Source: Saccharopolyspora sp. SCSIO 74807 (GTDB taxonomy: Bacteria; Actinomycetota; Actinomycetes; Mycobacteriales; Pseudonocardiaceae). From it: a stretch of 64,000 nt of DNA. Of this stretch, positions 2,944 through 54,543 are shown piece after piece. The stretch lies in assembly GCF_037023755.1 (NCBI RefSeq), contig NZ_CP146100.1, forward strand, positions 1,552,501 through 1,616,500, in the 5' to 3' direction. Position 1 is the stretch's first letter. Each line of letters opens with the position of its first letter. The notes beneath the pieces are model-generated. The model had not been told where the DNA came from. It did not search any database and saw only the letters and a list, made by a program, of their open reading frames with translations. The position numbers and the translations under genes are program-made.

Positions 2944-3540
2944 TCAGCGAAACATCGAGTCAGCGCGCGCGTTCGTCTTCGCACCCTGTTGGACCGAGTA
3001 CACGATGCCGTTGTAGACCAGGTCCCAGAGGTCGCGATCCCATTGCACGTCGCGGAGGTTGACCAAAGCTCGGCCACCGACTCGATCTTCGAGGCTTAGG
3101 TCCCACCCGCCGTAGGTGCCTTCGAGTTTGACCTCGGCGAGTTCGTAGACCCGAACGTAGGTCGTGCGGTCGCTGGCGAACCATTCCGCGCCCGCGGAGA
3201 TCCCGACCCGCTGCTGAAAGCGGACAACGAGGCTGAACACCGGGATGGGTGCCAGGATGATCAGCCACATCCACCAGGTACTCATCCACCCAAAGCCCCA
3301 GTCGCGGAGGATGGCGAAGAGCAGCAGTGCGATTGAGGCATAGACGCCCATGAGGAAGAAGTCTCGGGCCGAGCTTTGGTACCACTCCAGGACCGGCCCT
3401 TCACCTTCCGGGGCCGGGGGGTAGTTCGCCTTGGTGGGGTCGACCCTGCTCTTTTCGTGGTGGTCTTCCTTGAGCACAGGGGCGCGCGGGGGGCGGGGTT
3501 CCCCAGTGGTCGGGTCGGGTTTCGGGGCGACCTGCGGCAC
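2944..3540 (-). CDS. Two-pass membrane protein, last gene of secretion-substrate cassette
   Basis: The product has 198 residues. The N-terminal 55 residues are Pro- and charge-rich (probably cytoplasmic). Two adjacent hydrophobic helices follow (about residues 63-82, FFLMGVYASIALLLFAI, and 88-108, WWMWLIILAPIPVFSLVV). The soluble C-terminal domain of about 90 residues contains YVRVYELAEVKLEGTYGG. It follows the WxG protein by 47 bases in the same direction, so it is probably part of one operon with 5436-3588. Its place after a presumed secreted effector would fit an immunity or membrane accessory protein, but no family is recognised. Confidence 0.5.
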   Translation of the reverse strand: MPQVAPKPDPTTGEPRPPRAPVLKEDHHEKSRVDPTKANYPPAPEGEGPVLEWYQSSARDFFLMGVYASIALLLFAILRDWGFGWMSTWWMWLIILAPIPVFSLVVRFQQRVGISAGAEWFASDRTTYVRVYELAEVKLEGTYGGWDLSLEDRVGGRALVNLRDVQWDRDLWDLVYNGIVYSVQQGAKTNARADSMFR

Positions 3541-3587
3541 AGTGCAGTCCTGCTTTCCTGCTCATGGTCCGGGGTTTGGCGAGAACG

Positions 3588-4724
3588 CTACCCGGCCGCT
3601 TCCCACACCTCATCGACGACGAAGCCGACTCCGACTCCAATCAACCCGCCTGCGACAGCACCTACCGGGCCGCCGATAGAGGCCCCGATAAGGCCGCCTA
3701 CTGCGAAGCCAGCGGTATTGGACACGACCGCTTGCGTCGGATCCTTGCCACCGGAGACGTCGAGACCGACGCCCACGGCGGTGAAGCCCAGGCCAACCCA
3801 TGGAAGCTTGCTGAGGACCTTGCTGCCGCCCCGCACAAAGATATTGGCGGGAGGGGTCACGCTCTTGGGCACAATCTTCGCGTCGAGCATCCGCGTGACC
3901 CGCGGCGGCACGTACTTGTCGATGAACCGGGACGCGCGGGTAGCTTGCGCCATGTTCAACGCATACTTGTGGTCCATCGTGCGCTCGGCGGCGATCGATG
4001 CTGCCTTAAGCTGACCGGCTGCGCTAATGCTCGGGTTTGCGGCCATCTTCGAGGCTAGGGCCGGGCTCTTCACGTTCGAGGCGATCGTGCGCCATGCAGA
4101 GGTCCGCGCAGCGATCGCAGCAGCCGTACCACCGGAAATATCGCCGAGCGTGACCGTGAACTTCGCCGGGTCGAAGGTGCCGGAGAGGAATTGCACCACC
4201 ATCGACTGCGAGTTCGTTTCCTTGTCCTTGGCGGCCTTGACGATCTGGCTTGCTTCCTTGTACGCGCGGACCTGCTTGACGTAGTCAGCGTTCGCCTCGG
4301 TCAGGCCCGCGTGCTGTTCCTTCTGTTGCGGGGTGGCGTTCTTCGGCAAATGCCCCGGGGCGGCAGGCGCCGGACCCGGCTCCTTGATCTTGAAACCCTC
4401 GATGACCAAGCCGCCTTCGCGCGCCACATCACGTGCCTGCTGCATACGGGCTCGGACCGTGCGCAGGTCGGCTTGGTGGGTCTCCAGCGCGGTGACCATG
4501 CTCGTGATGAGCATCGTCTGGCCGTTGGCCATCTTGTCGCCTTCGGTCAGCAGAGCGCGCAGATTGTCACCGGCCAAGCCAAGCCATCCGGTCTCCGATT
4601 CGCCGCGTGCCGACGCGAACGCTCGGGCGAGGTCCTCCAGGCTGACGCAGCGTTCGCGCATCCACTGTGCGGTGACGGTCAAGGTTTCGGGGTCGCCCTT
4701 GACCTCGGTGTCCAGCTCTCCCAC
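3588..4724 (-). CDS. WxG-type secreted effector-like protein with glycine-zipper C-terminus
   Basis: The product has 378 residues. An N-terminal helical region carries a W47-L-G49 turn, the hallmark of ESX/type VII substrates. A charged coiled region follows, then a Pro/Ala linker (PGPAPAAPGHLP). A second helical region (about 175-300) precedes a C-terminal hydrophobic, Gly-rich stretch (about 340-370, GGLIGASIGGPVGAVAGG), which resembles a glycine zipper or pore-forming tail. It is preceded by a small protein with a YxxxD export signal (4748-5047). Such WxG plus small-partner pairs are known from type VII secretion. A membrane-acting effector is inferred; no enzyme domain is visible. Confidence 0.6.
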   Translation of the reverse strand: MGELDTEVKGDPETLTVTAQWMRERCVSLEDLARAFASARGESETGWLGLAGDNLRALLTEGDKMANGQTMLITSMVTALETHQADLRTVRARMQQARDVAREGGLVIEGFKIKEPGPAPAAPGHLPKNATPQQKEQHAGLTEANADYVKQVRAYKEASQIVKAAKDKETNSQSMVVQFLSGTFDPAKFTVTLGDISGGTAAAIAARTSAWRTIASNVKSPALASKMAANPSISAAGQLKAASIAAERTMDHKYALNMAQATRASRFIDKYVPPRVTRMLDAKIVPKSVTPPANIFVRGGSKVLSKLPWVGLGFTAVGVGLDVSGGKDPTQAVVSNTAGFAVGGLIGASIGGPVGAVAGGLIGVGVGFVVDEVWEAAG

Positions 4725-6223: not shown

Positions 6224-6522
6224 ACTGCTCCCTTCAGTTCGTGCACATCCCGGTCCGCACCGCACCGCAGCAGGCGCACACCGTCGCGGACGGCTTCAAC
6301 GCTCGGACCGTTAACGGTCAGCACCCACAGCCCGCCGGCCCGGTAGACCTCGACGCGGTTCGGCCCAAGGCAGTGCAGATCTCGGGTCGGGTCCTCCCAC
6401 GAGCGAAATCCGCCCGCCTGCCGCATAGCTTGATAAGCGGCGTCGGGATCCACACCCGGAACCACGGCACGGAACTGACGGTTGTCCGCGGCTCCCGTGG
6501 TCCGCTCACTGTGCTCGGTCAT
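6220..6522 (-). CDS. Uncharacterised 100-residue protein
   Basis: ATG 6522 overlaps the stop of the preceding gene (ATGA), and its own stop overlaps the next start (GTGA). The sequence has an alternating helix/strand pattern (DPDAAYQAMRQAGGF, NRVEVYRAGGLWVLTVNG). No family is recognised. Its place in a strictly coupled chain suggests a small complex. Confidence 0.5.
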   Translation of the reverse strand: MTEHSERTTGAADNRQFRAVVPGVDPDAAYQAMRQAGGFRSWEDPTRDLHCLGPNRVEVYRAGGLWVLTVNGPSVEAVRDGVRLLRCGADRDVHELKGAV

Positions 6523-7109
6523 GCCGCCTCCACCCCGAATTCCAGCGCGTGGCGCGGCCTGTACGACTGCCCCGGAAGCCGAGTAGGCTCGGCTGCCGTC
6601 CCCGGCGGAGATGCTTGACGGGTGTGCCTGGCAGGTGAGGACTGCCAGGACCGTTCGTCAGCGCTGCCGGGGACACCAATGTGTAAGCCGGGGCCGTCAA
6701 GATCTTGGTCAACCACAGGCCAATCCACGACGTGAACACCATCGCGGATCACCGGTAGTTGGTCGGTTGCCTCGACATCCGCTACGCGCGGAATCAGTGC
6801 CGTCGCCCGATCCGTCGAGTGCGCCCCCGGCCGGGAGCTGCCCAACGCCCTCGATAGGGCTTCGTCGAGAGACACGGCCGACTCGGACAGAACTGGAAAA
6901 ATCTTCGCAATCACACAGCACGGCTCGCACAAGGCGTAGCCGTGAACGTGCGGGGGGCGGCCCGACCATGCCCCAATGACCCCGCGGACCCAGTGCTCAC
7001 ATAAACCGGGGAAAAAATCCGCTCCCATCTCGGATACGGACCGTTCGACGAGATGCAGCCTGGATTCCTTCTCGCTCGCCACCCACACGAAATCGACCGG
7101 TCTACTCAT
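6519..7109 (-). CDS. Uncharacterised 196-residue protein in coupled chain
   Basis: The start is taken at ATG 7109 because it overlaps the stop of the 41-residue membrane peptide (ATGA). The N-terminal half contains several Cys and His (FPGLCEHWVRGVI, then HVHGYALCEPCCV) that could bind metal. The second half is Pro/Ser/Arg-rich at the end (QSSPARHTRQASPPG) and may be disordered. It shares a coupled stop/start with 6220-6522. No family is recognised. Confidence 0.45.
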   Translation of the reverse strand: MSRPVDFVWVASEKESRLHLVERSVSEMGADFFPGLCEHWVRGVIGAWSGRPPHVHGYALCEPCCVIAKIFPVLSESAVSLDEALSRALGSSRPGAHSTDRATALIPRVADVEATDQLPVIRDGVHVVDWPVVDQDLDGPGLHIGVPGSADERSWQSSPARHTRQASPPGTAAEPTRLPGQSYRPRHALEFGVEAA

Positions 7110-17507: not shown

Positions 17508-17611
17508 CGATGCTCCTCAACTGGGCTGGTGTTGACACCGAGACAAGGGGTGCCGCACTGCGCAAGGTGGGCACGCCACCGCTCCAGTTCACTCGGATGG
17601 AGCAAACACAA

Positions 17612-17648
17612 GAGCGGCCCGCCTCTCACATGAAGAGACGGGCCGCTC
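17612..17648 (-). terminator. Terminator between gene 17660-18259 and the exonuclease
   Basis: GAGCGGCCCG (17612-17621) pairs with CGGGCCGCTC (17639-17648), with an inner CTCT/AGAG pair. It lies 11 bases beyond the stop at 17660. Confidence 0.7.
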
Positions 17649-17659
17649 CCATTCGGAAC

Positions 17660-18259
17660 CTAGAAGATTGATCCGATTTCGTCGCGCCTTTCGCGCACCA
17701 GGGTTTCCAGGCGGCTCAACTGCTCGATCACAGTCTCCCGCTCGGCCTCATCCGCGTCATCCAGCTTCGAAAGTTCGAGCTGTTCGACATCGCGGACAAG
17801 CTGGGAAATATTCTCCGACAAGCCTGATCGCCGAAATGCACGATCCCTTGATCGCCGATCATCGTACCGCCTCCGAGAGGCGATATGCGAAGGAGCAGAC
17901 CCGAATCCGTAGGATTCGCGGGTCTCCTCGCTGATATCGGGATCTTGAAACAATAGTTCACTGACCTTGTACTTGACTGCCGCCGGAACCGCTAGTGGAT
18001 CGCCAGGCGACCCGGCTTCCTTGCGAATCAGCCCAATAGCTTGAGTATATTCCCCAGATTTGCCACGCAGATCCATTTCCCCATCGCGCCGCCGACAGTT
18101 TTTCCGCAGCCACAACATGATGCTGGCCAGGTCGTCGGAATCTTTTTGCTTTTGCTCCGAGTTCGGCGCGTTATGGATATTGCGCAAATGCCGTGCCCCG
18201 GCGGCGACGCGACTGCGGAACTCACCGCTGAGGTCTTCAGCGGAATTCGGCATCCCCAC
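17660..18259 (-). CDS. Uncharacterised helical protein, 199 residues
   Basis: The start is taken at GTG 18259 (VGMPNSAEDL), which has AGGAG 7 bases before it. The product is charged and largely helical (LVRDVEQLELSKLDDADEAERETVIEQLSRLETLVRER). The centre is Arg-rich (ASRRRYDDRRSRDRAF). Base composition is AT-richer than flanking genes, suggesting separate origin. No family is recognised; a position after the lysis module suggests cargo. Confidence 0.5.
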   Translation of the reverse strand: MGMPNSAEDLSGEFRSRVAAGARHLRNIHNAPNSEQKQKDSDDLASIMLWLRKNCRRRDGEMDLRGKSGEYTQAIGLIRKEAGSPGDPLAVPAAVKYKVSELLFQDPDISEETRESYGFGSAPSHIASRRRYDDRRSRDRAFRRSGLSENISQLVRDVEQLELSKLDDADEAERETVIEQLSRLETLVRERRDEIGSIF

Positions 18260-18372
18260 AGTCGTTCTCCTCACCTACGGTCTCATCACGAGCTGGTGAC
18301 AAGCCTAGCGAGAATTAATCCGTGGGACAAACACGGGGCGACGCCAGTCCCCGCGCCGACCAGCCGAAACGC

Positions 18373-42333: not shown

Positions 42334-42660
42334 ATGACCATGCGAGACCGGTCCGGGCGCGAAAAGTGGGCGGACCTGTGGGAGGACATGAGCTACCGCG
42401 TCGTCGCTGAGGATCGGGTGGATGACGTCGTTCTCCGAACCGTGTGGGAAGGCATCGACGACGTGCCCTCGGCGATGTTCTTCATCGGCGTCTGCCGAGA
42501 CGGTGGCACGTTCGACACCGTGTCCTCGGCCGATACCGAAGCCGAGGCACGGTTGCGCCATCAGCACGCAGCCGAGCTGCTTCGTGCACTGTCCTCCAAG
42601 GCCGAGATGCTGCGCCGCGTGCGCGAAGGCATGACGGAGTCGTCTACGCCTTCACCGTAG
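42334..42660 (+). CDS. Uncharacterised 108-residue plus-strand protein
   Basis: The product includes WADLWEDMSYRVVAEDRVDDVVLRTVWEGIDDVPSAMFFIGVC, a compact mixed fold, and a helical end (ARLRHQHAAELLRALSSKAEMLRRVREGM). It converges on the deacetylase gene with a 9-base overlap. No family is recognised; it is likely cargo. Confidence 0.5.
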   Translation: MTMRDRSGREKWADLWEDMSYRVVAEDRVDDVVLRTVWEGIDDVPSAMFFIGVCRDGGTFDTVSSADTEAEARLRHQHAAELLRALSSKAEMLRRVREGMTESSTPSP

Positions 42661-43782
42661 GCCCCGGCACGAAGGCACTTTGCCTACCAGCCCCGCGGCA
42701 GCGTCGATCGCAACACGCTGGTGCGACTGGAGGTCCTGCTGCCCCATTGCCGTGTGCGACGGCTCGTACGGGTCAACGATCCCGGTACGTATGCCGGCCA
42801 ATTCCTCGATGACCGCCAAACCGTGAAATGGCACGGTGTTCGGGTCATAGCCACCTTCATGGCTGAACACGAGGCGACCCGCGGACAGCTCCCATGCGGC
42901 GTCGAGCAGTAGCCGTGTCAGGACGCGGTAGGCCGAGGTCGACAACATCTGTCGGCCGAGTGGATCGCCGGCACCGGCGTCGTACCCAGCGGCGACCATG
43001 ATCAGGTCTGGGTCGAATCGCTCCAACGCCGGGAGTACGACACGGTCGAATGTGTCGCGGTAGGCACCGTTCCCCGAGCCTGGGGGTAAGGGCACGTTGA
43101 TCGATGTGCCTGTGCCAGCGCCCTCGCCGTTCTCGGCCACCCCGCCGGAGTTGGCGGGGTAGTTATTGTCCTGGTGCAAGCTGATCGTCAGCACGCGCGG
43201 GTCGTCGTAAAAGATCTGTTGTGTCCCGTTGCCATGATGAACGTCCCAGTCGACCACGGCGATGCGGCCGACCTCCTCGGAGTCAAGCAGCTCGGCCGCG
43301 GTGATGGCGATGTTGTTCAGCAGACAGAAGCCCATGCCGTGCGTCCGGGTCGCGTGGTGTCCCGGCGGTCTCACCAAGGCGTAGGCGTTGTCGACCGCGC
43401 CGAACAGAACCGCCGACGCCGCGGACAGCGTGCCGCCGGCGGCCAACAGCGCGATGTCGTAGGAGTCCCTGCCGAATGGGCTCGATCCCTGTTTGCCGAG
43501 GGCACCGCCCCCGCTTGCGCTCGCTTCCCGCAGTTTCTCCAGGTAGGAACCGTCGTGGACTCGGAGAACCTGCTCAGGCTCGACGCACACCGGCTCGATG
43601 CGCGTCAGTTCCTCCAACAAGCCAGAGGATTCGACAAGCTCGTGCAGTCGACGCTTGGTGTCCGGATGCTCGAAGTGCTGGCCCGGTTGAATGCCGCGGA
43701 GCGGCGAAGCGCCGAACAGCCCTGCCGCACTTCCGGTGTCATGCCAGCCATACAGCGAATGCCACACGTACCCGGTCGTCAT
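42652..43782 (-). CDS. Class II histone-deacetylase-like amidohydrolase (phage cargo)
   Basis: The product has 376 residues and starts at ATG 43782 behind GGAGA. Zinc and catalytic motifs are complete: VRPPGHHATRTHGMGFCLLNNIAITA (His pair), VVDWDVHHGNGTQQIF (Asp/His ligands), MVAAGYDAGAGDPLG (third Asp ligand) and SHEGGYDPNTV (Tyr). Bacterial members act on acetylated polyamines or other acyl-amides, or possibly proteins. It lies between the phage HNH gene and the small terminase, where packaging genes are normally adjacent. It may modify host metabolism during lysogeny; substrate unknown. Confidence 0.9.
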   Translation of the reverse strand: MTTGYVWHSLYGWHDTGSAAGLFGASPLRGIQPGQHFEHPDTKRRLHELVESSGLLEELTRIEPVCVEPEQVLRVHDGSYLEKLREASASGGGALGKQGSSPFGRDSYDIALLAAGGTLSAASAVLFGAVDNAYALVRPPGHHATRTHGMGFCLLNNIAITAAELLDSEEVGRIAVVDWDVHHGNGTQQIFYDDPRVLTISLHQDNNYPANSGGVAENGEGAGTGTSINVPLPPGSGNGAYRDTFDRVVLPALERFDPDLIMVAAGYDAGAGDPLGRQMLSTSAYRVLTRLLLDAAWELSAGRLVFSHEGGYDPNTVPFHGLAVIEELAGIRTGIVDPYEPSHTAMGQQDLQSHQRVAIDAAAGLVGKVPSCRGLR

Positions 43783-43896: not shown

Positions 43897-44223
43897 TCAC
43901 TGCTCGCCGGTCAGCCCCGGGTGCCGCTCGGCCGGACGCAGCCGCAGCGCGGCACGCCGGGCGCGGCCCTGCACACCCTCACGAGCGGACTTGCGTGCAT
44001 GGCATGGCTTGCACGCTGCTTGCAGGTTGGACAGTTCATGCCGATCACCAGGACGTATGTGGTCCACATCGGTAGCCACACCCACGCAGTCCGGTCCCTT
44101 GATGTGGCAGGTGTAGGCGTCCCTGCGCATCACCTGCGATCGCAGGCGCGACCAGGTACGCGGCAACCGGGGCTTTCGAGTGCTGCTACCCCATGCATCC
44201 ATACGCGCGTTTTCCCTGGTCAA
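43897..44223 (-). CDS. Phage HNH endonuclease (packaging-associated)
   Basis: The product has 108 residues; TTG 44223 has AGGGGAG 4 bases upstream, better than ATG 44202. It has RLRSQVMRRDAYTCHIKGPDCVGVATDVDHIRPGDRHELSNLQAACKPCHARKSARE: C-x(n)-DHI-N-C-x2-CH, a complete HNH site. In many siphoviruses such a gene precedes terminase and assists DNA cleavage at packaging. Here the deacetylase and a small gene intervene. Confidence 0.85.
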   Translation of the reverse strand: MTRENARMDAWGSSTRKPRLPRTWSRLRSQVMRRDAYTCHIKGPDCVGVATDVDHIRPGDRHELSNLQAACKPCHARKSAREGVQGRARRAALRLRPAERHPGLTGEQ

Positions 44224-44274
44224 GAGACTCCCCTACCTGGCTATATATGATCCACGTCATACTTGCTTGACGGA

Positions 44275-44451
44275 TTACACGTTGACTGTAGTGTTGCCTC
44301 CGTCGTTATCACCCATCCGAAAATCCCAAGACCCTCCGAGGTCTGCAGGTTGTTTGAGAACTCCATATTCGCTCATCTCTGCCGCAAGAGCCTTGACCCG
44401 TAAAAAGCGGTCACCGAATGGCAGTGATTCGGCAAGGAACTTTCCGGACAC
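44275..44451 (-). CDS. Possible 58-residue protein
   Basis: An open frame from GTG 44451 reads VSGKFLAESLPFGDRFLRVKALAAEMSEYG and ends GNTTVNV. Composition is protein-like with no low-complexity bias. No good ribosome site is seen before the GTG, so the true start is uncertain. It is divergent from 44471. Confidence 0.4.
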   Translation of the reverse strand: MSGKFLAESLPFGDRFLRVKALAAEMSEYGVLKQPADLGGSWDFRMGDNDGGNTTVNV

Positions 44452-44470
44452 ATCAATCTAAGGGGATGAA

Positions 44471-44875
44471 ATGAGCGTCGAAGAGTACATCGAAGCAATG
44501 GCCGAAGGCTACTCCGATTGCCTTCTGTGGCAGGCGCACTACGTGGACGACCACGATTGGGACTGCAATCGCCAAGAGTGCGAATGCGAGACCACGCAGA
44601 TGGACGAAGACTTCAGCACTGAAGACTTCAGCGATGATCTGCGCGACACAATCAACGAGGATTGCAAGAACTTCTTCGACTCCAACTGGCCAGATCTCGG
44701 AGACATTGACCCGCATCAGGCAGGCCATGACTTCATGCTCACCCGTCAGGGACACGGAACCGGATTCTGGGATCGCGGTCTCGGCGCCAAGGGCGACCGA
44801 CTGACCAGATCCGCCAAGGTCTACGGCGAACACAACATCGAAGCCGAAGAAGGCTTCATTTACTCCGTCAACTGA
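44471..44875 (+). CDS. Phage protein of the HGxGFWDRG type, 134 residues
   Basis: It starts behind AAGGGGATGAA and reads MSVEEYIEAMAEGYSDCLLWQAHY. Later it has PHQAGHDFMLTRQGHGTGFWDRGLG, a motif widely found in small phage proteins of unknown role. The middle is acidic. It is the first gene of the plus-strand cluster. Confidence 0.7.
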   Translation: MSVEEYIEAMAEGYSDCLLWQAHYVDDHDWDCNRQECECETTQMDEDFSTEDFSDDLRDTINEDCKNFFDSNWPDLGDIDPHQAGHDFMLTRQGHGTGFWDRGLGAKGDRLTRSAKVYGEHNIEAEEGFIYSVN

Positions 44876-44887
44876 ACGTTTCAGGTG

Positions 44888-44909
44888 GAGCGCATATCGA
44901 TATGCGCTC
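44888..44909 (+). other. 22-bp perfect palindrome in leader of 44944
   Basis: GAGCGCATATC is followed by its exact complement. Outside it, AGGTG and CACGCCT can extend the stem loosely. It lies between the first and second plus-strand genes, in the position where the later gene borders carry the structured RNA element, but it lacks that element's conserved flanks. Confidence 0.55.
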
Positions 44910-44943
44910 ACGCCTAAAGGGTTCAGCTCTAGAGAGGAACTAC

Positions 44944-45243
44944 ATGATCACGGCAGTGTGGAGCAGCTACGGGCACCGGTTCATGGAAACCGAGTCCGTC
45001 CACGAAGAGCAATGCCTTACCTGCGGCGCTCGCTACCGACTCGTTAACGATGATCCGGAAAACCCGACGCACGGCGCATACCAAACCGCTAGTGGCGAAG
45101 AGCCCCAGGAGTGCACAGGACGGACAGACCTCGTGCACGGATACGAGCGGCATTGCGAAAACGACAACGGCCGTCCCTGCACTGAATACGGCGAACCGTG
45201 CGAGCACACAGAACACAAGTGTCCGTGCGTGCAATGCGCGTAA
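44944..45243 (+). CDS. Cys-rich small phage protein, 99 residues
   Basis: It starts at ATG 44944 behind GAGAGGAAC. It has EEQCLTCGARYRL and several later Cys/His (YERHCENDNGRPC; CEHTEHKCPCVQC), suggesting one or two zinc-binding knuckles. Its TAA stop is directly followed by the first RNA element. Confidence 0.6.
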   Translation: MITAVWSSYGHRFMETESVHEEQCLTCGARYRLVNDDPENPTHGAYQTASGEEPQECTGRTDLVHGYERHCENDNGRPCTEYGEPCEHTEHKCPCVQCA

Positions 45244-45244
45244 C

Positions 45245-45301
45245 CCGTTGAGATACGCCGTGAGGCATGGACTGTGGTCCGTGCCGTGCGGTGTCCCAAC
45301 G
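45245..45301 (+). ncRNA. Structured RNA element, copy 1
   Basis: It begins 2 bases after a stop codon with CCGTTGAGATACGCCGTG and ends GCGGTGTCCCAACG. The outer stem CGTTG/CAACG and inner GCCG/CGGT are shared with copies 2 and 3. The apical stem GGCATGGAC/GTCCGTGCC (9 bp) has a sequence unlike the other copies. It lies 20 bases before the next ATG. Confidence 0.75.
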
Positions 45302-45321
45302 AATACGGGAAGAAGAGGAAA

Positions 45322-45870
45322 ATGGGAAACTGTTGGAATGCATTTTGTATTGCGGCCGACTGCAACGGCGTACACCACGTCGACACGACCGGTTCCGCAT
45401 GGAAGCAGGAACGCGGCACAGAATACGACCCATCTACCGGCGACTATGTCCGGCCGGAGAACATGTCTCAGCCTTCCCCCGTAATAACGCTCTATGAGCG
45501 GATCACGGGTACACATCTTACCCAGCATGACACCTATGACATTCTTACCGACTCTATGCTGTTCGGTTCAGAGTGGTTCTTTTACAGCGAGCCATGCGGA
45601 AAATCAGGAAGTGGCGCATGGACGGCGACCGTCACGGATGCCAATGATTATCGCCGTACGGCCACCATCGGCCATGGCGAGATCGTTAAGGCGATGCAGA
45701 ATATCGCGGACGGGAAAACCAAGCTCGCCGATTTCTATGTCAAGCAAATTCGCGCCGTCATTGAAGCAGGCAGCGGCACCGAAGCTGAAGAAGGACTGTG
45801 CCAGCTCGACGCTATCGCCTTTGACGCAATAGTTCAGGTAGCTGTCTTGGGTGACGTCGTTTACGGCTGA
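45322..45870 (+). CDS. Uncharacterised phage protein, 182 residues
   Basis: It starts at ATG 45322 behind AGAAGAGG. It reads MGNCWNAFCIAADCNGVHHVDTTGS, then SPVITLYERITGTHLTQHDTYDILTDSMLFGSEWFFYSEPCG and a helical end. No family is recognised. It is flanked by RNA elements 1 and 2. Confidence 0.55.
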   Translation: MGNCWNAFCIAADCNGVHHVDTTGSAWKQERGTEYDPSTGDYVRPENMSQPSPVITLYERITGTHLTQHDTYDILTDSMLFGSEWFFYSEPCGKSGSGAWTATVTDANDYRRTATIGHGEIVKAMQNIADGKTKLADFYVKQIRAVIEAGSGTEAEEGLCQLDAIAFDAIVQVAVLGDVVYG

Positions 45871-45876
45871 TCGCAG

Positions 45877-45935
45877 CCGTTGAGATATGCCGTGGCACGC
45901 GGTCGACTCGTCCGCGTGCTGCGGTGTCCCAACGG
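45877..45935 (+). ncRNA. Structured RNA element, copy 2
   Basis: It has CCGTTGAGATATGCCGTG and TGCGGTGTCCCAACGG as in the other copies. The apical stem is GCACGCGG/CCGCGTGC (8 bp), a different sequence that is still fully paired. It starts 7 bases after the stop of 45322-45870 and lies 85 bases before the next ATG, with a further small hairpin in between. Confidence 0.78.
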
Positions 45936-46020
45936 TTCCATCCGATTTGGGCAGGGGCCTTTTCATGGCCCTAGAACACGGCGGGCGCATGCCGCCGGTT
46001 GCTATCGAGAGGAAACGATC

Positions 46021-46617
46021 ATGGATGACGGGCAGAGCAACATGTCCATTGAGCGAGTGCACGTCCTCAACGGCCACACCAGCAGGGAAACGGCCTATGT
46101 AGTCGACGACTACCCGTACGGCCGTCGTTTGCGGTGCAAGATTCGCTACTGGATCGAGTTTGGCACCAAGGGTGCGACGAAGGGACAGATGCGGTTCGTG
46201 TCGCAGACCACGAACCCCAAGATGTCCGGCGAGGTGTGGAACAAGCCGAAAGCGTCGACGTACTCGGACCTGAAGGTGATGTACCTCGACCACAACGAGC
46301 ACGTACAGCAGTGGGGAACCAGTTTGAACATGTCACCCGCTGAAGACGCCCGCGCCCGGCTCATGGGTATCTACGACCAGTTCACAGAGACCGACCGCAA
46401 GCGCTATGACGCCCTGCGCAAGTTCTCGCAGCGGTACTACCCCCCTTGGCACGAGTGGGAAGAGCGCATCCACGCGATGACGCTTCACATGCAGGAGACC
46501 GGCGAAGACCCCGACGTTTCGAACGGGACGTGGGAACACGGCGGCCGCCTGTACTACGTGGGCGAGGATCCTGCCGCGTACATCGCGACCGCTCGCCAGC
46601 GCTTTCAGCAGTCCTGA
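46021..46617 (+). CDS. Uncharacterised phage protein, 198 residues
   Basis: It starts at ATG 46021 behind GAGAGGAAACG. It reads MSIERVHVLNGHTSRETAYVVDDYPYGRRLRCKIRYWIEF and KGQMRFVSQTTNPK, a strand-rich N-terminal domain. The rest is helical (AEDARARLMGIYDQFTETDRKRYDALRKFSQRY). Similar proteins occur in actinophages without assigned role. It is flanked by RNA elements 2 and 3. Confidence 0.6.
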   Translation: MDDGQSNMSIERVHVLNGHTSRETAYVVDDYPYGRRLRCKIRYWIEFGTKGATKGQMRFVSQTTNPKMSGEVWNKPKASTYSDLKVMYLDHNEHVQQWGTSLNMSPAEDARARLMGIYDQFTETDRKRYDALRKFSQRYYPPWHEWEERIHAMTLHMQETGEDPDVSNGTWEHGGRLYYVGEDPAAYIATARQRFQQS

Positions 46618-46618
46618 C

Positions 46619-46676
46619 CCGTTGAGACATGCCGTGGCGCTCAGGGCTCGCCCTGAGCGTTGCGGTGTCCCAACGG
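46619..46676 (+). ncRNA. Structured RNA element, copy 3
   Basis: It has CCGTTGAGACATGCCGTG and TGCGGTGTCCCAACGG. The apical stem is CGCTCAGGGC/GCCCTGAGCG (10 bp), again unrelated in sequence to copies 1 and 2 but fully paired. It starts 2 bases after the stop of the preceding gene. Confidence 0.78.
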
Positions 46677-46715
46677 GATACCGCGCCGCGAACGCAGCGC
46701 AGCGAATCTGTACGC

Positions 46716-46755
46716 GCGAGCTGCCCTGCCCCGGGCATGGACCAGGGCAGCTCGC
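46716..46755 (+). other. 13-bp hairpin between RNA element 3 and gene 46778
   Basis: GCGAGCTGCCCTG (46716-46728) pairs perfectly with CAGGGCAGCTCGC (46743-46755). It could terminate, attenuate or protect the transcript. The next ATG is 22 bases on. Confidence 0.6.
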
Positions 46756-46777
46756 TGACCATCGGAGCTAGATTCCA

Positions 46778-47149
46778 ATGGCTGACGAACAGCTTATCAA
46801 TCAGCAAGCGGAGCAAACCGAGCTTTTCCCCGGCTTACAGCCAGAGAATCCCCAGGTTCCTACCTGGGCGCAGGAAGCTCGCGTGTCGCCCGCCGGTTAC
46901 ATCCTCACCGTCCCGAATCTCTCGCAGGCCCCGGCCGACTGGCCGCACGCGACGTGGCTGCGGACGGATTGCCTCGATTGCGGGCAGTTCTCGGAGTGGG
47001 TTTTCACGGCGGACGACGGCAACGGGTGGGACACCCGGCACGTGGAGCAGACCGGGCACCGCCGATTCTACTCTTTCGCGCTTTCGCGCATTCAATTCGA
47101 GATCATGCCGCCACATCCGACCAGACCCACTCTGCATAGCGACCGCTGA
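46778..47149 (+). CDS. Uncharacterised phage protein, 123 residues
   Basis: It reads MADEQLINQQAEQTELFPGLQ, then LRTDCLDCGQFSEWVFTADDGNGWDTRHVEQTGHRRF, where CxxC and later His residues may bind zinc. No family is recognised. Confidence 0.55.
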   Translation: MADEQLINQQAEQTELFPGLQPENPQVPTWAQEARVSPAGYILTVPNLSQAPADWPHATWLRTDCLDCGQFSEWVFTADDGNGWDTRHVEQTGHRRFYSFALSRIQFEIMPPHPTRPTLHSDR

Positions 47150-47219
47150 AGCAGTATCCGTGGTGCTCACGATTTGATTACGAGCATTGATCCATCGCAT
47201 CCGAATGAAGGGGAAAATC

Positions 47220-47726
47220 ATGTCCGAGAATGATGCGACTATTACCGCCGCGGCGGACGAGGTGCCGAGCTGCCGACGAGACGGAGTGCACCGTCCCGAT
47301 GACTTGCCGGAGCAGGGGAATCGCTGCAAGGAATGCGGCCAACGAATCACTTGGATCGGTCCCGGAATCTACGACTGGGAGAGCTGTGAAGAAGTCGACC
47401 TGGCGAAGCCGCGCGCGCGGTACCCGGCGCAGCGAGTCAACGTCATCTCGATCGAGGCTCTAAACGAAGCGGACTTCGGCGGACGCGACCTGTCATACGG
47501 GGCCTCGCCCGAGGCGCAAGTTCAGGACAACACACGACGTGCCGGTTTCACGGTCCCAGCTTTACGAGCTTTCAGCGACACCGTGCGCTTGCACGGTGAA
47601 GACGTTGACACTGTTATCTCTGACTTGCTCGGAGACCTTCTGCACCTGTGCGACGCGCTCGGCCACGATTTCGATGCGCTACTGGAGCGCGGGTGTTCTC
47701 ACTACGAAGCCGAAGTCGACGGCTGA
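47220..47726 (+). CDS. Uncharacterised phage protein, 168 residues
   Basis: It starts at ATG 47220 behind AAGGGG. The N-terminal part has CRRDGVHRP and NRCKECGQRITWIGPGIYDW, a zinc-ribbon-like pair. The C-terminal half is helical (DVDTVISDLLGDLLHLCDALGHDFDALLERG). No family is recognised. Confidence 0.55.
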   Translation: MSENDATITAAADEVPSCRRDGVHRPDDLPEQGNRCKECGQRITWIGPGIYDWESCEEVDLAKPRARYPAQRVNVISIEALNEADFGGRDLSYGASPEAQVQDNTRRAGFTVPALRAFSDTVRLHGEDVDTVISDLLGDLLHLCDALGHDFDALLERGCSHYEAEVDG

Positions 47727-47730
47727 CGCG

Positions 47731-47928
47731 ATGCTCAGAGCGTGCGTTGCCAGCGTTGTTCTCGTCCTGGTCGTCGGTGCCGCCCTGGCTGATCCGCCGA
47801 TCGGGAGTGAAACCACGATCGTTCCCGCACCGGACGAGTCCCGCCGGATCGAAGAAGACGACCCCGGGTGGGACTGCATGACAATGGGAAACAGGAAGTG
47901 CGGACCGCCCGCGGAGGTACGGCGTTAG
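47731..47928 (+). CDS. Small secreted protein, 65 residues
   Basis: It starts at ATG 47731, 4 bases after the previous stop. The first 20 residues (MLRACVASVVLVLVVGAALA) form a signal peptide ending ALA-D. The mature part is short, acidic and ends with two Cys (GWDCMTMGNRKCG). It is the last gene before the convergent terminator. Confidence 0.55.
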   Translation: MLRACVASVVLVLVVGAALADPPIGSETTIVPAPDESRRIEEDDPGWDCMTMGNRKCGPPAEVRR

Positions 47929-48013: not shown

Positions 48014-48382
48014 TCAGTCGTCGGAGCTGGAGCCGCTCCGCTTCGACGAGCCCGAGCCGCGGTCGCTGCCGCTCTTGCTGTCCGAGCCAGAGTCGGAGTC
48101 GCTGTCGCTCTTCTTCGACCCAGACCCGCCGCTGCTCTTCTTCTTCGACGAGCTGGAACCCGAGTCCGAGTCGGAGTCCTTCTTACGGGAGCTGGAGCCG
48201 CTGTCGCTGTCCTTCGAGCCCGAGTCGCTGTCGCTCCTCTTCTTAGAGTCGCTGTCCCGCTTCTTCGACCCGGAGTCCGACTCGCTGCTGCGCTTCCGCG
48301 ACGAACCCGAGTCCGAGTCGCTGTCGGAGCTGTCCGAGGACGAGGACTTACGGTCCTCGCTGTCGCTGGTGTCGGTGGCCAT
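48014..48382 (-). CDS. Ser/Asp/Lys-rich low-complexity protein, 122 residues
   Basis: ATG 48382 is preceded by GGGAGG. After MATDTSDSEDRKSSSSD the whole protein is built from S, D, G, K, R and E in irregular repeats such as DSDSGSSSRKKDSDS. It is certainly disordered. The DNA is correspondingly repetitive (TCGGAGTC-type units). Such proteins can bind nucleic acids or coat surfaces when modified; no function is known for this one. Confidence 0.6.
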   Translation of the reverse strand: MATDTSDSEDRKSSSSDSSDSDSDSGSSRKRSSESDSGSKKRDSDSKKRSDSDSGSKDSDSGSSSRKKDSDSDSGSSSSKKKSSGGSGSKKSDSDSDSGSDSKSGSDRGSGSSKRSGSSSDD

Positions 48383-48716
48383 AGCTGGTACCTCCCGTGA
48401 AGTCGCGCGTGAGTCCGTATTCAGTTGTCCAGGTCCTTCATCACTGGTTGGCCGGCGTGTGCCCCCATTGCCTCGTGGGCGGGCGCGGCCAGTTGAGGCC
48501 ACGCCCGCCCGCGTGTGCCTGGGCCGGGGAACCGCACTGATCAGGCGCGGGATCGCCCCGTCAGCCAGGCAGCAGCTCTCACCACCAGTCGAAGGTGAGA
48601 GCCCCACGCACGCGCGGCCCGCCGAGGAGCCCGCGCGGCGGCACGGGAGGGCCGCGTCCCTCGTGGCTGTCGGGGGCCACGTTCTCGACGTGGCAGACAC
48701 GAGAGGAGCGGGCGGG
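48383..48716. other. Non-coding gap with a long hairpin
   Basis: No convincing ORF is seen. At 48476-48509, GGGCGGGCGCGGCC pairs with GGCCACGCCCGCCC (one mismatch), a likely terminator for the minus-strand gene 48717-48920. The rest probably contains the promoter of the Ser/Asp-rich gene. Confidence 0.5.
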
Positions 48717-48920
48717 TCAGCCGACCTCGCGCGGGATCTCCTGAACGATCTCGTCCGCACGCTGCTGCGCGGCGGTGGCACCGCGGGCGACCTCCGCCGC
48801 GACGATTCGATACACGGCGTCCACCGGCACAGCGCGAACCTGCTTGCAGTCGCGCTCGTACCAGTCGGACGCCTCGTTGACACCCTTGATGAGCTGATCC
48901 ATCTTGACCTGTTCGGTCAC
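48717..48920 (-). CDS. Small helical phage protein, 67 residues
   Basis: The start is set at GTG 48920 because GGAGG lies 5 bases before it. It reads VTEQVKMDQLIKGVNEASDWYERDCKQV and EVARGATAAQQRADEIVQEIPREVG. No family is recognised. Confidence 0.55.
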   Translation of the reverse strand: MTEQVKMDQLIKGVNEASDWYERDCKQVRAVPVDAVYRIVAAEVARGATAAQQRADEIVQEIPREVG

Positions 48921-48966
48921 ACTGACCTCCAACTTCTCTTGGACTGCACGGAGTTCCGTGCACACG

Positions 48967-49041
48967 TGGTCGCGCCGGGACTCGAACCCGGATTACCCAA
49001 GGCCCAGATACAACGGACTCAGTGCCAGCCGGGCGGCTTGC
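48967..49041 (-). other. tRNA-like sequence, degenerate
   Basis: On the minus strand CCGGGTTCGAGTCCCGG is a perfect T-arm, followed by CGCGACCA like a tRNA 3' end. An anticodon-like arm GTCCG-TTGTATC-TGGGC lies upstream. The matching 5' acceptor (GGTCGCG) is absent and position 37 is a pyrimidine, so a working tRNA is unlikely. It may be a phage tRNA remnant. Confidence 0.35.
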
Positions 49042-49347
49042 CATTAGCCGAAACGACCGTCAACGCGCCTCGCGTCAACTCGGCGCCGGTGTTGGCGTCC
49101 TGCCAGCAGCGATACCGCAAGAGAGAGAGGCCGCGCCGTCAACCGACCACGCGGCAAGAACGGCGGCATGGAGCGCTTTACGGGACGACGCGGCGAGGCG
49201 TCGGGGGTATGCCGCAGAGGTCGCGGACACGGATCGTCCCCGACAGGCACAGAGAATGCACCCTCGCCCTAGTAGTGGGTGCTGGACTTCCGGAAGGGGC
49301 ACAGACCGAACAGTGATCTGTATCACCATGTGTTGATGAAGGCCGAG
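49042..49347. other. No confident gene
   Basis: Short frames on both strands lack ribosome sites and conserved patterns. The region lies between the tRNA-like fragment and the GTTACG repeat field and may hold the promoter of the 67-residue gene. Confidence 0.4.
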
Positions 49348-49688: not shown

Positions 49689-51377
49689 TCACACGGTCGT
49701 GAGGGACATCGTGACACCAACAGGCGGCGGCTCGGGCTCGCCAACAAACCAGAACTTGAGTCGATCGAGCGATGGCCGGACTCCCGAGACACGCGCCTTG
49801 TGCGCCCAAACGCGCTCCACGACCATGCCCAGGAAGGTGCGCTGCTCAGCGAAGGGGTAGTCTGCCCAGGACTGAGCGAACTCTTCCAAGATGTTGATAA
49901 AGCCAACATCCAATGACTGGCCGTCCGGGATCAACGCAAGCTCGGCCTCGTACTGAGTCAGACGCTCGTTGCTCGTGTCGTATCGTCGCCTGAACCGCTT
50001 CTCGCCACGCTCCCCGGTGAACAGACCCTTCAGCTTCTCATCCTCCATACGTTCCAAGAAGGCTTCTTCTTCACCGATGGCGGCTTCGAGTTCGGCTCTG
50101 CGGGCCGCTCGATCAGGATGATGTACGTCGTCCCACCGCTCGGCAATCGCGAGCACCGCCGGGTCGTCGGGTGTACGGGAGGTAAGACGGGAAATCACCG
50201 CGCTGAATACGAGCGATTCCACGGCGGGGCCGTTGATGACCGTCCCCGGGCAACGACCGCCCCTCGCTCGACGGCCACAGCGATATCGAGGGATAATCTT
50301 CCCTTGACGCATCAGCGTGGTGTCATAGGTCATCCGACCGCCGCACTCTGCGCAGTGGAGCAGATCGACAAGGAGCCCCCGCGCAGGACGCGATGTCGTC
50401 GGTGCCGGCTTGCTGCTGCCCACTCCCCGGTTCCAGTAGACCGGAGTGCGTTGCCCGAACTTCGCGCGAAGTCTTGTGTAGTCAGCCAGCGAGATGATCT
50501 CGGAGCCCACCCGGACCTCCTCACCGGTGTCCGTATGGCGATAGATCTCGCCCTTGTGCGGCAAATAGCCGACCATTACGGGCGAGGTCACGAGCTGGCG
50601 CACGACGGTCCAGGACCAGGAGTTCGCGTACTTCATCGGCTTTTCGCGAAGCTTCTGGGCCTTCAGGGGCTCGCCCTTCGACTCCAGTTGCGCGATCCTC
50701 TCCTTACGGCTGGCCCATCGAGGGCAGTCATACCCCTGCTCGTTCAGCCACCGAGCGATTGCGCGTAGAGACCAGGGCGGGTCAGCACGCAGTAGTTTAT
50801 CGACCACCGTCGCGACGACCGCGGCCTCTTCGGGATGTTGCTCCAACTTCCTGGCGGGGGTCACCCGATAGCCGTACGGGCGGTGCCCCATCCACCGGCC
50901 CTCGTTCCGCTCCCACACCCGAAGGTCGCTCACGCGCGTCGCTGTGTTCTTCGATTCCTGGTGCGCTTGGTGAGCGACGATGGTGAGCTGTAGTTCCCAT
51001 CCTGGGTTGTTCGAGTCGATCCCGTCGGCGATGGAGATGAAGCGGCAGCCCATCTCGTAGACCGCCTTGATGATCTCGGAAGCCTGCGGAATCCCTTGCC
51101 GGGTCGCACGGTCGACCTTGTACACGATCAACACGTGCGCACGGCGATCTCGAAGCGAGTTCAGGGCGTTCTCGAACCCAGGCCGCTCGACGTGGGCGAG
51201 GTAACCAGACTTGTCCTCGTCCTTAAAGACGTCCATGACCTGGGCGTTGATCGACTCGGCCTTCTTCCTACCGGCATCCTCCTGCCGGGGAATCGAGGTC
51301 GACGTGTCGGTGAGATCCGAAATCCGCAGGTAAAGCACTGCCAGAAGCGACGATGCGCCCTGTCCGGTGCCTGACAT
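49689..51377 (-). CDS. Large serine integrase
   Basis: The product has 562 residues and starts at ATG 51377 behind GGGGAGGAG. The N-terminal resolvase domain has LAVLYLRISDLTDTSTSIPRQ (nucleophile Ser20), then VYKVDRATRQ. The recombinase domain has RWMGHRPYGYRVTP and SLRAIARWLNEQGYDCPRWASR. A zinc ribbon follows (LLHCAECGGRMTYDTTLMRQ, then RCGRRARGGRCPG), then a coiled coil (EAAIGEEEAFLERMEDEKLKGL). All parts for integration are present. attR lies 59 bases upstream of its start, as usual for such phages. Confidence 0.95.
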   Translation of the reverse strand: MSGTGQGASSLLAVLYLRISDLTDTSTSIPRQEDAGRKKAESINAQVMDVFKDEDKSGYLAHVERPGFENALNSLRDRRAHVLIVYKVDRATRQGIPQASEIIKAVYEMGCRFISIADGIDSNNPGWELQLTIVAHQAHQESKNTATRVSDLRVWERNEGRWMGHRPYGYRVTPARKLEQHPEEAAVVATVVDKLLRADPPWSLRAIARWLNEQGYDCPRWASRKERIAQLESKGEPLKAQKLREKPMKYANSWSWTVVRQLVTSPVMVGYLPHKGEIYRHTDTGEEVRVGSEIISLADYTRLRAKFGQRTPVYWNRGVGSSKPAPTTSRPARGLLVDLLHCAECGGRMTYDTTLMRQGKIIPRYRCGRRARGGRCPGTVINGPAVESLVFSAVISRLTSRTPDDPAVLAIAERWDDVHHPDRAARRAELEAAIGEEEAFLERMEDEKLKGLFTGERGEKRFRRRYDTSNERLTQYEAELALIPDGQSLDVGFINILEEFAQSWADYPFAEQRTFLGMVVERVWAHKARVSGVRPSLDRLKFWFVGEPEPPPVGVTMSLTTV

Positions 51378-51410
51378 TTCGCTCCTCCCCCCCGTGATCA
51401 GCTTAACGGA

Positions 51411-51465
51411 CCACAGGTGTGCATTGGTAGTTCCTGCGTGCACGAGATCGCGCACCACTTCGGCA
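51411..51465. other. attR (right prophage-host junction)
   Basis: The phage arm GGTGTGCATTGGTA (51416-51429) and GTTCCTG precede CGTGCA (51437-51442), after which host sequence resumes with CGAGATCGCGCACC. With the attL half this arm gives a dyad matching at 11 of 14 positions. Confidence 0.88.
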
Positions 51466-51503
51466 TCGACGACGAGACGCTGCACTCGCTGGGCTGGGCC
51501 TGA
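51437..51503 (+). pseudogene. Host zincin metallopeptidase, 3' part
   Basis: Read in the original frame this gives HEIAHHFGIDDETLHSLGWA and a stop at 51501-51503. It is the missing end of the gene at 904-1196 and carries the zinc motif. Without its own start it is not expressed as a peptidase. Confidence 0.9.
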
Positions 51504-51623
51504 TCGCGGGTCTGATCGGAACAGCGGGCGTGCTCGCGGAACCGCTGGCTCTGTCAAGAAGCGGCGTCAGCCGGCGCCGCCATCCGACCAGCTACCCGAA
51601 CCGATCCCTGAACAACTCTTCGA

Positions 51624-54030: not shown

Positions 54031-54543
54031 TCACTCCCCGGTTTCCCGGGCCTGCTCAGCTTCCCGGGACTCTTCAGCCGAGCGGTCGCGGATCGCCACC
54101 TTGGTCGGGCTCGGCGCCTGCGGCACCGCCTCGCGCACCCGGACCTGCAGCACACCGCGGTCGTAGTCGGCCTCGACCCGCTCACCGGTCACGCCATCCG
54201 GCAGGTTGAACCGGCGCTGGAACGAGCCGCTGCGGATCTCCCGCACCAGCACGCCCGAGTCGTCCTGCCCGGACGTCTCGGTCTGCTCGGACGTCTCGGC
54301 CCGCCGGCCGCTGATCGTCAGCACCCCGCCGGAGACCTCCACGTCGACGTCCTGGTCCACGTCCACGCCCGGCAGCTCCAGCCGGATCAGCACGTCCGAG
54401 CCGTCGCGCACCACGTCGGCCGCGGGGACGAACGGCTGCGCAGCACGACCGCCGAAGGAACGGCGCACCAGCGCGTCGAAGTCGCGGTCGAACCGGCGGT
54501 TCAGGCCGGTGAACGGATCCCATCCTCGAACGGCAAGAGCCAT
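54031..54543 (-). CDS. Hsp20/alpha-crystallin small heat-shock protein
   Basis: The product has 170 residues. It starts MALAVRGWDPFTGLNRRFDRDFDALVRRSF; the alpha-crystallin domain has FVPAADVVRDGSDVLIRLELPGVD and GVLTISGRRAE, and ends with GVLQVRVREAVPQ. It acts as an ATP-independent holdase chaperone. A HAIR-like inverted repeat lies upstream (54602-54620). Confidence 0.9.
   Translation of the reverse strand: MALAVRGWDPFTGLNRRFDRDFDALVRRSFGGRAAQPFVPAADVVRDGSDVLIRLELPGVDVDQDVDVEVSGGVLTISGRRAETSEQTETSGQDDSGVLVREIRSGSFQRRFNLPDGVTGERVEADYDRGVLQVRVREAVPQAPSPTKVAIRDRSAEESREAEQARETGE

Follow-up and report, generated by a model that had tools for sequence, protein, structure and literature searches.

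Intergenic stem-loops of cluster M mycobacteriophages were reportedly first described for Bongo, PegLeg and Rey. In T4-type phages, promoter-stem-loop (PeSL) cassettes, which carry an early promoter, place repeated stem-loops between small accessory genes, and modules are exchanged there. Between the early genes of phage T7 lie RNase III sites, which are imperfect duplexes with an internal defect. Integron attC sites stand one per gene behind the stop codon, as imperfect palindromes with a variable centre and the box order RYYYAAC ... GTTRRRY, and REP/BIME elements are palindromes in operon spacers, whose RNA can protect the upstream message and which are dispersed chromosome-wide with a RAYT transposase. 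For cluster M, one report describes conserved repeats between many right-arm genes and stem-loops that precede CR3 and CR4; genes inserted there bring a CR3 copy with them (PMC7953290). The repeats of cluster O phages, according to another, are 17-bp DNA palindromes, and recombination there also caused deletions (PMC4351075).

We analysed a 64,000-nucleotide stretch of the Saccharopolyspora sp. SCSIO 74807 genome (the window). It contains a prophage, in which terminase, portal, major head protein, tape measure, primase and DNA polymerase are matched and a serine integrase lies at 49689-51557. Between an HNH gene and the integrase, against the direction of the structural genes, runs an operon of six genes, all on the + strand, which we called by reading frame and GC bias, with no gene caller. 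They are g1 (44471-44875; 134 amino acids), which matches phrog_1915 of unknown function; g2 (44944-45243; 99 amino acids), with no family match; g3 (45322-45870; 182 amino acids), with a weak match to phrog_2355; g4 (46021-46617; 198 amino acids), with no family above the cut-off; g5 (46778-47149; 123 amino acids), with a sub-threshold match to DUF7848; and g6 (47220-47726; 168 amino acids), which matches phrog_3963. None of the six can be assigned to a known function by family matches. Relatives of g3, g5 and g6 occur in a prophage of Saccharopolyspora aridisoli, and a relative of g4 in a prophage of genome G224. Between the terminase side of the prophage and the HNH gene lies a histone-deacetylase-like gene (42652-43782, - strand; PF00850, 3.6e-87), and by eye G224 has a stretch similar to this region. 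An open frame with a Ser/Asp/Lys low-complexity part is found at 48014-48883 (- strand), and two loci with relatives of the operon, L009 (about 4201-4610) and L201 (about 3360-3670), contain stretches that resemble it by eye.

Three borders of this operon hold a hairpin of 58 to 59 nt, here termed type A, at 45245-45302, 45877-45935 and 46619-46676 (all + strand), each separating consecutive small prophage genes. The first-pass annotation had placed three copies at successive gene borders, starting 2 to 7 bases past the stop. Its coordinates proved exact, and the first base of the element is the second, seventh and second after the stop, which leaves gaps of 1 nt from a TAA (copy 1), 6 nt from a TGA (copy 2) and 1 nt from a TGA (copy 3). 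The copies share a 5′ end, CCGTTGAGAYAYGCCGTG, and a 3′ end, TGCGGTGTCCCAACGR, around a divergent interior, and a repeat search of the window recovered both conserved halves. The 5′ half, CCGTTGAGAYAYGCCGT, is matched without a mismatch at three places in the window and nowhere else in it; in a control that allowed up to three mismatches, shuffled sequences gave a mean of 0.86 matches and reached three in 6 of 100 shuffles. Across the genome (6,688,468 bases, one contig), the full gapped pattern was found three times on the forward strand and never on the reverse strand, and the reversed pattern, used as a control, had no match in the same 6.69 Mb. With a covariance model, the window copies scored 73.8 to 80.6 bits in their own genome, and the best other place, defined as neither a copy nor the reverse strand of one, scored 22.4 bits. 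A dispersed host repeat was rejected, since the genome holds three copies, all in one operon. Folded alone, each copy was far more stable than its shuffles (z of -5.4, -6.4 and -7.1); when the whole spacer was included with copy 1, the minimum-energy structure lost the outer stem and paired instead with bases in the start region of the following gene.

A covariance-model search, as the first-pass annotation had proposed, was run with a model built from nine copies (R1) alongside pattern scans. It brought up ten more type A copies in three other prophages, so that 13 distinct copies are known from four prophages, with R1 scores of 46.8 to 81.7 bits. Four are in the prophage of S. aridisoli (L009 = L081 = L202), which belongs to the same family as the window's genome, the Pseudonocardiaceae; four are in the prophage of G224 (L201), a genome of the same genus as S. 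aridisoli; and two are in an IMG/VR contig (L024), together with three hairpins that have a different lower stem (type B). At E ≤ 0.001, R1 matched 3 of 297 genomes of the family, its own genome counted, 2 of 22 genomes of the genus of G224, and 1 of 394 genomes of the class, namely its own; the filters of the wider searches were stricter, at the cost of weak matches. Genome G046, of the same species, had no copy in the R1 search at E ≤ 0.001. No window match reached the gathering threshold of any Rfam 15 family, and the first-pass annotation had not recognised a known riboswitch; the sub-threshold matches, to microRNA families and similar, were far under their cut-offs (for copy 3, mir-5881 reached 24 bits and would need 87) and were rejected. 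A tRNA-like element was likewise rejected, as the sole report of ARAGORN was a poorly defined tRNA, lacking a clear anticodon, on the opposite strand (48966-49058). A search of the open-licence literature found no paper on the element, and as far as Rfam and that literature go, type A is a new sequence family. We also noted palindromes that recur in Knoellia genomes (L034, L037, L040, L041, L054, L058, L074, L076, L077, L078, L088), with GTTGGGACAC as arms around a variable centre; they score up to 36 bits with R1, roughly equally on both strands, and are probably an unrelated repeat family.

One hairpin fits all 13 copies, the outer stem being partly mismatched in some. It consists of a 6-pair outer stem, a 1x1 position, three pairs, a 2-nt bulge on the 5′ side, a middle helix and a 10-pair apical stem. 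The middle helix, GCCGUG/UGCGGU with three G-U pairs, is nearly invariant: five of its six pairs do not change among the 13 copies, and the sixth is the same in 12. The sequence of the apical stem varies among copies, and in each window copy the stem is different yet self-complementary, as had been described. The 1x1 position is A/C in nine copies, G-C in two, C-G in one and a gap in one, and the bulge can take either of two registers, with AY or GC unpaired. Covariation, claimed earlier from the three window copies, is thin on these sequences alone and strong on the 13 copies from four prophages. Pairing extends to 95.7% of 324 cells (84.0% in shuffles), double-sided changes to 13 of 25 pairs and 42 cells (6.1 and 13.3 in shuffles), and the covariation score is 0.396 (0.163 in shuffles); none of 500 shuffles matched any of these measures, and while kinship of the sequences can beat shuffles without structure, that weakness does not touch the slid controls or the strand bias. 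When the alignment was slid by one to three columns, pairing fell to 31 to 47%. G-U occupies 59 cells and A-C four (14 and none in the apical stem); since a DNA hairpin would treat both alike, this excess points to a constraint on the sense-strand RNA. The element is a selected, sense-strand RNA fold that is phage-borne, and the suggestion of a structured RNA under selection between consecutive phage genes has thereby held up. Among the roles offered with that suggestion, namely re-initiation, stability, processing or the binding of a phage protein, the data point to no one in particular.

The gap from the upstream stop is one base in six of the 13 copies, absent in two and six bases in two; the remaining three have the stop within their own sequence (CCGT TGA G). 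The next start follows 11 to 24 nt downstream in seven copies and is preceded by a further leader of roughly 70 to 116 nt in six; in the spacing table, 5 of 15 listed starts are off, four of them by one base, and the G224_2 start is not settled. The leader of g5 (46690-46777, + strand) contains a 13-bp inverted repeat (46716-46728/46743-46755), and L009, L024 and L201 have a similar one after a type A copy; this leader is possibly another structured RNA. Behind g1, a type C hairpin (44873-44925, + strand) has the TGA stop within its outer stem and is kept in G224. This hairpin and one at 4298-4354 of L024 are unrelated in sequence and have one layout (5 bp, 1x1, 3 bp, 1x1, long stem), with the TGA in the outer stem. 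Of the 52 genes called in the window, eight have a post-stop fold with z ≤ -2.6, and four of these are in the six-gene hairpin operon. A rule for post-stop hairpin layout was passed by 4 of 6 operon genes and by 3 of the 46 others, among them the host-side gene 54031-54543, whose lower stem is similarly broken. Another strong hairpin (z of -7.0) lies at about 17601-17653 (- strand), behind the gene 17660-18274. At the border before g6 (47150-47219), folding of the spacer and the post-stop scan gave no such hairpin; it has a weak terminator-like site at 47159-47171, and S. aridisoli carries a type A copy at this border. The hairpin is dispensable there.

The order of genes and hairpins was compared among three of the prophages. 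It is g1-C-g2-A-g3-A-g4-A-g5-g6 in the window, gX-gY-A-g3-A-gZ-A-g5-A-g6 in S. aridisoli, where gX and gY are separated by another hairpin, and g1-C-gW-A-gZ-A-g4-A-...-A in G224, where blastp found no relative of g5. Three genes thus occur in three pairings: g3 with g4 in the window, g3 with gZ in S. aridisoli, and gZ with g4 in G224. Protein identity between the window and G224 is 73% for g1 and 67.5% for g4, between the window and S. aridisoli 53% for g3, 64% for g5 and 55% for g6, and between S. aridisoli and G224 75% for gZ. At the DNA level, similar blocks end at hairpins, as in S. aridisoli 2344-2863 with G224 6464-6987 (reverse of L201) and, in the window, in a block at 45781-45935, a block start at 46612 and a block end at 44927. 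The last is the end of the type C hairpin, at whose far end the similarity between the window and G224 stops. Seven blocks measured 150 nt or more. Of their 27 internal edges, 12 lay within 20 nt of a hairpin where 2.6 were expected (p = 5e-5), and among query-side edges only, 6 of 13 did where 1.3 were expected (p = 5e-4); these edges are not independent (two blocks share one of them), and the similarity of the hairpins to each other pulls alignment ends to them, a bias of which the three gene pairings are free. The hairpins, which are 76 to 93% identical between copies over about 58 bp, delimit gene units that are exchangeable among related prophages and coincide with the seams of similarity.

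In our preferred reading, to which we give about an even chance, the element is an intercistronic hairpin of a polycistronic phage mRNA and acts as a portable end mark of genes, either as a barrier at the 3′ end or as a site of processing, and at the same time as a seam along which genes are exchanged. The hairpin would form on or right behind the stop codon after the terminating ribosome departs and, once folded, would shield the 3′ end of the upstream coding region from 3′-5′ decay. Alternatively, it might be cut as an imperfect duplex of the RNase III type; the host genome has an RNase III gene. The next gene would keep its own ribosome-binding region downstream of the hairpin. Since unrelated small genes are repeatedly separated by the same ∼58 bp, this sequence could serve as short homology for the swap, gain and loss of gene-plus-hairpin units, and homologous recombination over about 58 bp would be the simplest route of exchange. 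Several observations count against this explanation: the near-invariant middle helix exceeds the needs of a decay barrier, the border before g6 does without the hairpin, copy 1 in its full spacer favours a fold that lacks the outer stem, similar hairpins stand behind some other genes, such as the host-side 54031-54543, and the edge counts carry the biases noted above. Accessory regions of phages are mosaics of small genes whose borders are usually unmarked; in this case a conserved, covarying RNA marks the border. If the hairpin both ends messages and supplies homology, this would explain how small genes can be inserted without upsetting their neighbours, and the hairpin would be a handle for finding such cassettes. 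The double role, of which we infer the message-border half, is the most interesting aspect of the element.

The conservation of the middle helix could also be read as that of an operator, in which a phage or host RNA-binding protein recognises the bulge together with GCCGUG/UGCGGU and coordinates how all cassettes are translated or degraded, with the apical stem merely closing the structure. The sameness of the middle pairs, wobbles included, beside a variable apical stem speaks for such an operator; since the type B and C hairpins have other lower stems at the same positions, we consider it rather unlikely. A barrier to Rho loading or ribosome run-on, which would mask the untranslated spacer behind the stop and avert polarity in an operon of small genes, would fit the short spacers and the tight coupling to stop codons, some even inside the element. 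It would leave the near-invariant middle helix unexplained, however, and six of the 13 copies are followed by the further leader noted above, so we regard it as improbable.

We give similarly little credence to the view that the hairpin is a transcription terminator or attenuator and sets how strongly the gene behind it is expressed. The strong GC-rich hairpins behind stop codons are compatible with one, and in actinobacteria terminators lacking a U tract are discussed. However, the four terminator-like sites found are all away from the type A copies, and no T run occurs at the copies, on which grounds a U-tract terminator was rejected; a sigma-70 consensus scan, which does not reach other promoter types, gave no promoter-like site in 44200-47900; and with the next start as close as it is in seven copies, a full terminator would silence the next gene. 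The lack of a T run and the little room for a promoter in these seven together make terminator action less likely. The presence of one element per gene behind the stop, its imperfect palindrome with a variable centre and the cassette-like gene combinations recall a folded-DNA recombination site like attC, a hairpin in single-stranded DNA at which a recombinase moves gene-plus-site cassettes. The 59:4 ratio of G-U to A-C indicates RNA, though, the GTT/AAC boxes are reversed relative to attC, the window has no tyrosine recombinase match, and none of the seven genome matches to TIGR02249 (integron integrase) is over the cut-off or within the window. Strand bias, box order and the lack of an integrase over the cut-off led us to discard an integron-like site, and we hold a recombination site of this kind to be highly improbable.

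Compared with the known systems, type A resembles attC as a single post-stop element per gene, an imperfect palindrome with a variable centre, and differs from it in the GTTG start and CAAC end of most copies, besides the RNA-strand constraint and the missing integrase. With REP/BIME it has in common the palindromes in operon spacers; unlike them, its three copies are undispersed, in one prophage operon, and the two Y1_Tnp matches of the genome, at 2.45 and 4.67 Mb, lie away from type A copies. The T7 RNase III sites are likewise imperfect duplexes between consecutive phage genes, with cleavage of type A putative, but they differ from the near-invariant, wobble-rich core and variable apex seen here. 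PeSL cassettes and type A both have module edges at stem-loops (here the 12 of 27); PeSL carry an early promoter; in the window operon the sigma-70 scan, which covers that promoter type, gave no such site, and seven of the 13 copies leave just the short distance to the next start.

Type A is also similar in layout to the stem-loops of cluster M. The Estes record has several post-stop hairpins in which 1x1 mismatches interrupt the lower stem and the apex varies, and its spacer after gene 160 has no such hairpin. The G181 stretch (L258, reverse strand), found through g1, also has several post-stop hairpins between small genes, with lower stems split by 1x1 mismatches. In cluster M (Estes, Aziz) as in type A, hairpins stand behind the stops of consecutive small accessory genes and are followed by a purine-rich ribosome region, and both have a split lower stem and a variable apex, a layout that is unspecific in that the host-side gene 54031-54543 has one as well. 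The sequences are unrelated: the best R1 match in the Estes stretch scored 14.9 bits with filters off, far from the range of the type A copies. Unlike in cluster M, no common CR3/CR4-like repeat follows the 13 copies, six of which have other leaders. One tentative generalisation, which we regard as possible though doubtful, is that a single RNA device is common to actinobacterial phages whose sequences are unrelated, namely a stop-anchored hairpin with a lower stem broken at set places and a free apex; it would make each small accessory gene a self-contained, exchangeable transcript unit that needs no dedicated recombinase, with mRNA processing and gene shuffling running through the same sequence. 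In layout and position, type A is a sequence-unrelated counterpart of the phage intergenic stem-loops known from cluster M.
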